A stretch of 25,442 bases of DNA from a virus. The translations under genes were made by a program, and so were the position numbers. The DNA is taken from positions 1 to 25,442 of IMG/VR virus record IMGVR_UViG_3300046459_000564. One strand, 5' to 3'. The notes under the pieces are model-generated. The model ran no database searches. It was given only the letters and a program-made list of their open reading frames with translations, and was not told where the DNA came from. The number at the start of each line of letters is the position of its first letter. Position 1 is the stretch's first letter. Of this stretch, positions 17,346-24,262 are shown one piece after another.

Positions 17346-17420
17346 TGGTAGCGGGGGCGGGAGTCGAACCCGCTATTTTCACGTTATGAGCGTGACGAGC
17401 TACCGTTGCTCTACCCCGCA
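17346..17420 (-). tRNA. tRNA with anticodon CAT (Met, or Ile2 if the C is modified)
   Basis: Complete cloverleaf with encoded CCA. Acceptor pairs G2-C71 to G7-C66 are perfect but 1:72 is T-T. D stem GAGC/GCTC with loop AACGGTA; anticodon stem TCACG/CGTGA and loop CTCATAA; T arm GCGGG-TTCGACT-CCCGC; discriminator A. The anticodon stem lacks the three G-C pairs typical of initiators, so an elongator Met or lysidine-type Ile is likelier. Copy C of the promoter-like element ends 2 nt before it. Confidence 0.93.
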
Positions 17421-23933: not shown

Positions 23934-23977
23934 GGACTCAGAGCCCCGATGTCCGACTTTTATTTTCAAAAAAAATT

Positions 23978-24070
23978 GGCCCCGGTCACGGGAATTGCAC
24001 CCATTGTTCAGCCTCACCGATTCGCCGCGTCCGGCACACTCGGGTCGATGGCTTTGCGCATAGCACCGGG
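23978..24070 (-). other. Degenerate tRNA-like segment downstream of tRNA-Ile
   Basis: Ends pair as an acceptor stem (CCCGGT/ACCGGG, six pairs plus a G-G) with a G discriminator and an encoded CCA. Next to it, CCCGT and TGCAATT look like a T arm, but the 5' side AATGG pairs poorly (three of five). I cannot find a proper anticodon arm; the internal 65 nt contain a GCC/GGC stem only. It lies 17 nt after the Ile gene and may be a decaying or insertion-bearing tRNA. Confidence 0.35.
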
Positions 24071-24087
24071 ATTTCAGAAAAAATTAG

Positions 24088-24227
24088 CGCCGGTGGGGGC
24101 TATTGACACCCCGACCTGCGGATTATAAGTCCGCTGCTCTACTACGCGCCCCCCAAACCCTGGTCGTGCTCCGTAGCCTAGGGAACCGTTTCCAGCCATC
24201 AGGCGGCGCTCACTGAGCTACACCGGC
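24088..24227 (-). tRNA. tRNA-Ile (anticodon TAT) with a D-loop insertion of about 68 nt
   Basis: Acceptor GCCGGTG pairs perfectly with CACCGGC over 7 bp at the two ends of a 140-nt element. D stem GCTC (24215-24218) pairs with GAGC (24136-24139), anticodon stem GCGGA/TCCGC holds loop CTTATAA (anticodon TAT), and T arm GGGGT-GTCAATA-GCCCC is present. The D-loop is 75 nt instead of 7-11. Removing 24143-24210 would leave a canonical AGTGGTA loop with GG. The insert is bounded by an inverted pair GCGCC/GGCGC. A sigma70 promoter places the transcription start at its first base. No CCA encoded. Confidence 0.75.
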
Positions 24228-24233
24228 ACGGAC

Positions 24234-24262
24234 ACCTTAGCACACCGGCCCTTCGATGTCAA
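24234..24262 (-). promoter_or_regulatory. Sigma70-type promoter for the tRNA-Ile unit
   Basis: TTGACA (24257-24262), exactly 17 bp, TAAGGT (24234-24239) on the minus strand. The expected start, 7 nt past the -10, is 24227, the first base of the tRNA acceptor stem. The match of spacing and start site is strong support for both promoter and tRNA 5' end. Confidence 0.8.

Follow-up and report, generated by a model that had tools for sequence, protein, structure and literature searches.

A phage tRNA-Ile(UAU)-type cloverleaf with a hairpin arm in its D-loop, and similarly armed tRNAs in other phages

In the tRNA genes of bacteria and phages, group I introns lie in the anticodon loop, exceed 200 nt and are self-splicing, whereas archaeal tRNA introns at non-canonical positions include D-loop inserts of tens of nucleotides. 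Phage tRNAs may also depart from the host form in ways connected with defence. They have been proposed to escape anticodon nucleases through changes in the anticodon loop (PMC10264068); AriB, from the PARIS system, touches the D-loop in a predicted complex with its target tRNA-Lys(UUU), which is cleaved less well after a U16C change (PMC12409363); and retron effectors are another tRNA-targeting defence relevant to phage-encoded tRNAs (PMC11555353). Phage are absent from a review of non-canonical tRNAs, and according to a 2024 paper every bacterial tRNA known is a canonical cloverleaf. In the open-access literature searched, we came across no account of phage tRNAs with a hairpin in the D-loop, although an earlier mention in the subscription literature is possible.

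Here, we analyse a tRNA gene in a 25,442-nt stretch of DNA from a soil phage (IMG/VR record IMGVR_UViG_3300046459_000564), hereafter the window, and a set of phage tRNAs that share its main feature, a D-loop enlarged by a hairpin, which we call armed tRNAs. With canonical bacterial tRNA-Ile (RF00005), the window tRNA has in common a four-arm cloverleaf with stems of 7, 4, 5 and 5 bp as well as T33, A37 and A38, but it differs in its 75-nt D-loop, odd T-loop, missing G18G19, G73 and lack of CCA. As in group I introns, an insert lies within a tRNA gene, but in the D-loop, with a length of 65–68 nt and no catalytic core. The archaeal introns resemble it in the position and size of the insert, whereas here no bulge–helix–bulge (BHB) that restores a normal loop was found, and the armed class occurs in bacterial phages and often has inserts that are too short and simple. 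The defence-evading phage tRNAs (PMC10264068, PMC12409363, PMC11555353) likewise depart from the host form, and Lys(UUU) is prominent in the armed class; however, the known cases rely on point changes, for the most part within the anticodon arm, whereas here a whole hairpin stands in the D-loop and evasion is something that we infer.

The window cloverleaf and its surroundings

On the minus strand, positions 24088–24227 form a single cloverleaf in our own cloverleaf scanner. Its acceptor stem joins GCCGGTG (24221–24227) to CACCGGC (24089–24095) by seven of seven Watson–Crick pairs, and its D stem joins GCTC (24215–24218) to GAGC (24136–24139) by four of four pairs, enclosing a D-loop of 75 nt (24140–24214, from both scanner and fold) that holds the inserted arm. 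The anticodon arm (24118–24134; GCGGA CTTATAA TCCGC) is perfect, with five of five pairs, T33, A37, A38 and the anticodon TAT at 24125–24127, and was recovered by the scanner, by the fold and in a partial RF00005 match. The T arm (24096–24112; GGGGT GTCAATA GCCCC) has four Watson–Crick pairs and one G-U pair. Read directly, the 3′ end consists of a discriminator G and CTA (24085–24088) with no encoded CCA, followed by an A and a T6 run; the product would be about 140 nt long, or 143 nt including CTA.

The cloverleaf is real, a point on which we have hardly any doubt. Its scanner score is 26.1, whereas shuffling the whole window 1000 times with dinucleotides preserved gave 22.2 at best and never as much as 24. 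The minimum-free-energy fold is the same cloverleaf (−69.4 kcal/mol, z = −2.9), with the D stem running on into the hairpin of the insert, and nearly all stem pair probabilities are 0.97–1.0, the lowest (0.91) belonging to the last pair of the anticodon stem. A preliminary description had joined two tRNA halves into one cloverleaf at these coordinates, with a perfect 7-bp acceptor stem and a 4-bp D stem bracketing a 75-nt D-loop; the shuffles, the fold and the scanner bear this out, and it was right to describe the locus as a cloverleaf of the tRNA-Ile(TAT) type whose D-loop holds a structured insert.

The insert is about 65–68 nt long, having been delimited earlier as 24143–24210. It forms a hairpin arm (24146–24209, minus strand) closed by GCGCC (24205–24209) and GGCGC (24146–24150), a closing pair that had already been proposed and that has a pair probability of 1.0, and it folds better than its dinucleotide shuffles (z = −2.3). 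Deleting 24143–24210 leaves, as claimed, a 7-nt AGTGGTA loop in the joined form. Searches with the protease and the large protein gave relatives that are either 98–100% or about 43% identical and no variant copies of the insert, whose identical copies offer no covariation.

The elbow of the window tRNA is altered on both sides. Its T-loop reads T53-G54-T55-C56-A57-A58 with a T53.G61 pair ('TGTCAATAG'), where a canonical T-loop has G53 T54 T55 C56 and C61, and no unpaired G18G19 is left on either side of the arm, so that both partners of the D-loop/T-loop contact have changed together. The discriminator is G73, and the 3′ end is G-CTA instead of CCA. As a consequence of the non-canonical T-loop, the gene is not accepted by ARAGORN even after removal of the insert, and the match to the Rfam tRNA model RF00005 is partial (20.8 bits, below the gathering score of 29). 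Across the whole window, ARAGORN and Rfam (E up to 1) call a single tRNA, an ordinary tRNA-Met at 17346–17420.

Upstream on the same strand, a −35-like TTGACA (24257–24262) and a −10-like TAAGGT (24234–24239) are separated by 17 nt, the latter lying 6 nt ahead of the first tRNA base. The promoter TTGACA-17-TAAGGT that had been proposed stands in part: the −35 is strong and, together with its upstream block, is kept in distant relatives (77% identity over 63 nt in G013, G014 and G026), but the −10 is weak, with 3/6 consensus matches, and is absent from the list of a consensus scan. In these three relatives the block, −35 included, is followed by a gene starting ATGAAAACC and there is no tRNA, and L025 likewise has a gene starting ATGAAAACC in place of a tRNA after the same block. 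Directly downstream of the armed tRNA is a second tRNA-like element (23977–24070, minus strand), recognized by reading and by a fold with a z of only −1.1. It has a CCCGGT/ACCGGG acceptor-like stem, a T arm (ATGGG-TGCAATT-CCCGT) and an encoded CCA followed by T8, and its middle is one long irregular hairpin with no normal anticodon arm.

The armed tRNA is identical in three assemblies, namely the window and two other metagenome contigs, G001 and G002. G001, a near-identical relative of the window phage, measures 74,478 bp and is probably near-complete, because both its ends match the window and overlap there. It encodes a family A DNA polymerase-like protein, a sigma-70 region 4 protein, a 2627-aa protein and collagen-like fibres (L448–L451); a search of 50,697 phage records gave no match to its conserved 721-aa protein, and no RNA ligase or tRNA-repair gene was found among 20 of its proteins tested. 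We searched 46 relatives, identified by way of a conserved phage protein and often with the protease-gene side of the genome cut off or diverged, for further copies of the armed tRNA and found none. It is known from one phage lineage only; the tRNA-Met is common to many of the relatives. No cultured relatives of the window phage were found. Compensation for ATA codons was considered as an explanation and rejected, ATA being not especially frequent in the window (35 of 293 Ile codons).

D-loop-armed tRNAs in other phages

Scans of IMG/VR for the pattern TAGCTCAG ... GAGC ... GTTCRA at abnormal spacing, followed by a relaxed, anchored cloverleaf test, yielded about 48 other distinct phage tRNAs with D-loops of 19–73 nt and many isotypes. 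Many other pattern matches were rejected as tandem or partially duplicated tRNAs. Matches to tRNAs of cultured Streptomyces, Gordonia and Microbacterium were also set aside, the entries inspected (H41, H84, H90 and H83) being annotated at ordinary length. Lys-TTT (13), Glu-TTC (7) and Arg-TCT (4) are among the isotypes, next to others. Both Lys(UUU) (13/48 versus 15/156 in the background, p = 0.004) and Glu-TTC (7/48 versus 0/156, p = 3e-5) are enriched in the armed set, in comparisons that are uncorrected for phage relatedness and that use biased background loci.

The D-loop has its natural variable sites 5′ and 3′ of G18G19. In the first 39 armed tRNAs, the arm lies 3′ of G18G19 in 34 and 5′ in three, and the remaining two, one of which is the window member, have no GG outside the arm. 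Many of the short inserts are mini-hairpins with a GNRA cap (GAAA, GTAA or GCAA). Pairing within the inserts is specific to each tRNA: it is lost when 5′ and 3′ insert halves are swapped between tRNAs, and 0/5000 permutations reach the native energy sum in both size classes.

Most other members have fully canonical T-loops and the appearance of decoding tRNAs. The Rfam tRNA model aligns end to end with one of them, L385, D-loop insert included (67.7 bits), and L231 is an independent Ile(TAT) with a 67-nt D-loop, G18G19 kept and a canonical T-loop. Of the 48, ARAGORN overlooks 31, assigns a wrong anticodon to 11 and calls six with the right anticodon; a class of phage tRNAs so largely missed or misnamed would widen the range of molecules with which the bacterial translation machinery, or inhibitors of it, has to cope. 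The window tRNA very probably belongs to this class: its D-loop of 75 nt compares with the at least 19 nt that defines the set, and its insert is a hairpin, although it departs from the usual, but not universal, placement of the arm beside a kept G18G19.

One armed tRNA, the Ile(GAT) of a Lactobacillus prophage (L199), has an unannotated homologue, 85% identical, in the cultured Lactobacillus phage Lb and in an L. pentosus plasmid record. In helices 3–5 of the arm, L199 and Lb differ by two double-compensatory and four single-side changes, none of which breaks a pair, and helix 2 loses its innermost pair in one of the two sequences. This covariation comes from two distinct sequences with a weak shuffle control (60/500), and sliding the partners abolishes the signal. 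A further member, L206, has the same acceptor and T arm with the inner hairpin replaced. With a member in phage Lb, which infects L. brevis ATCC 367, the class is open to direct experiment; searches for cultured relatives of L193, L361, L210 and L231 found none. Adjoining the armed tRNA-Ile, phage Lb and the plasmid record also carry a 58-nt tRNA (L494, 537–594, and L496, 175–232) with intact acceptor, D and T arms and no anticodon arm, scoring 47.2 and 44.8 bits, respectively, against the Rfam tRNA model.

A probable retained arm and the alternatives to it

On balance, we read the window locus as a phage gene for an Ile(UAU)-type tRNA with a retained arm, and place it at the long end of an armed class that is enriched in phages. 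Its D-loop would have grown into an additional hairpin, kept in the RNA, to give a cloverleaf with a hypertrophied D arm. That the arm is kept rather than spliced appears likely, and the simplest account has it retained on the elbow side. Such an arm may change the elbow and the D-loop face, so that host defences that cleave or bind tRNA recognize it less well. By analogy with the known systems, evasion of tRNA-targeting defences is the role that we favour as the main one, tentatively and as an unproven proposal; it would give phages a testable new route of escape from tRNA-targeting immunity. A broader proposal is more doubtful still, namely that D-loop hairpins are a general and convergent counter-defence of phages, altering the face read by host anticodon nucleases and other tRNA nucleases with decoding kept, and that the window tRNA is an extreme member with its elbow rebuilt or lost. 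Charging of the window tRNA and decoding of AUA would be the least certain step for this member, with about even chances.

The altered elbow, with no G18-G19 and no T54, makes a non-decoding tRNA mimic or decoy a serious rival for the window member, if an unlikely one. Its tRNA shape would occupy or distract tRNA-binding proteins or nucleases, which agrees with the joint change of T-loop and G18G19, with G73 and the CTA end, with the CCA-ended element lacking an anticodon arm directly downstream, and with the anticodon-armless tRNA beside the armed one in phage Lb. However, the anticodon arm (T33, A37 and A38 included) and the stems are perfect, and the canonical T-loops and decoding look of most other members argue against a mimic.

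It is improbable that the arm is a D-loop mini-intron whose excision leaves a normal tRNA of about 72 nt. The 7-nt loop of the joined form would suit such an intron, as would the archaeal D-loop inserts L250 and L313 among the matches listed in our genome scan, but no 3-4-3 BHB restores a normal D-loop (archaeal controls gave no clear motif in the same test either) and the region holds no Rfam intron, ribozyme or group I catalytic core. Splicing is less likely for these reasons and because many class members have a short GNRA hairpin alone, which is too small, and one belongs to a Lactobacillus phage and hence to a bacterial host; the joined form, moreover, is still rejected by ARAGORN on account of its T-loop. 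We know of no tRNA-splicing endonuclease in bacteria. Rfam matches near the insert (FMN, RAGATH-21, viral pseudoknots and mir-9058) were far under threshold and judged to be chance. Among the three options that the preliminary description had offered, the mini-intron therefore finds no support, and a nuclease-evading arm best fits the recurrence elsewhere; neither the altered elbow nor the wider class figured in that description.

We give equally little credence to a decaying tRNA gene in which an insertion is tolerated: the degenerate T-loop, the missing G18G19 and CCA and the single phage lineage would be expected of decay, but all four stems are intact, the insert folds better than shuffles and class members elsewhere show compensatory change. 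Chance pairing of unrelated tRNA halves, or an assembly artefact, can safely be set aside, since the occurrence in one lineage that might suggest it is outweighed by the shuffle result, by the identity of three assemblies and by a search of the relatives for halves within separate intact tRNAs, which found none.

Cellular genomes and other unusual phage tRNAs

The short-arm pattern matched in 0/398 Pseudomonadota, 3/296 Actinomycetota and 1/297 Acidobacteriota genomes, and by eye all four matches are partial tRNA duplications, so that none of these 991 bacterial genomes holds a true case of the short form. Among the GTDB genome matches listed for the long-arm pattern, six pass the cloverleaf test: two named archaea, one 'Candidatus ainarchaeum', an internal duplication, a weak case and L357. 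The sole remaining candidate from a bacterial genome is a Phe-like tRNA of Dysgonomonas mossii with an apparent D-loop hairpin (L244, 2846–2938, minus strand), possibly in a prophage. From the short-form count, the long-form scan and this candidate, we take the class to be phage-enriched, with exclusivity to phages not proven.

Several phage tRNAs met in the scans are unusual in other respects. An armed tRNA with a 60-nt D-loop (L180, from 2618, plus strand) has the anticodon CTA and would read amber codons, and two with a similar arm layout (L205, 497–613, and L210, 1495–1609, both minus strand) have the anticodon ATT, in which A34 would be unusual. Elsewhere in the molecule, a tRNA-Leu(TAA) (L090, 1815–1946, plus strand) has an apparent anticodon-loop insert of about 49 nt, far below the size of a group I intron, and in a tRNA-Asp(GTC) (L114, 5174–5284, plus strand) about 39 nt seem to be inserted around position 26, between the D arm and the anticodon arm.
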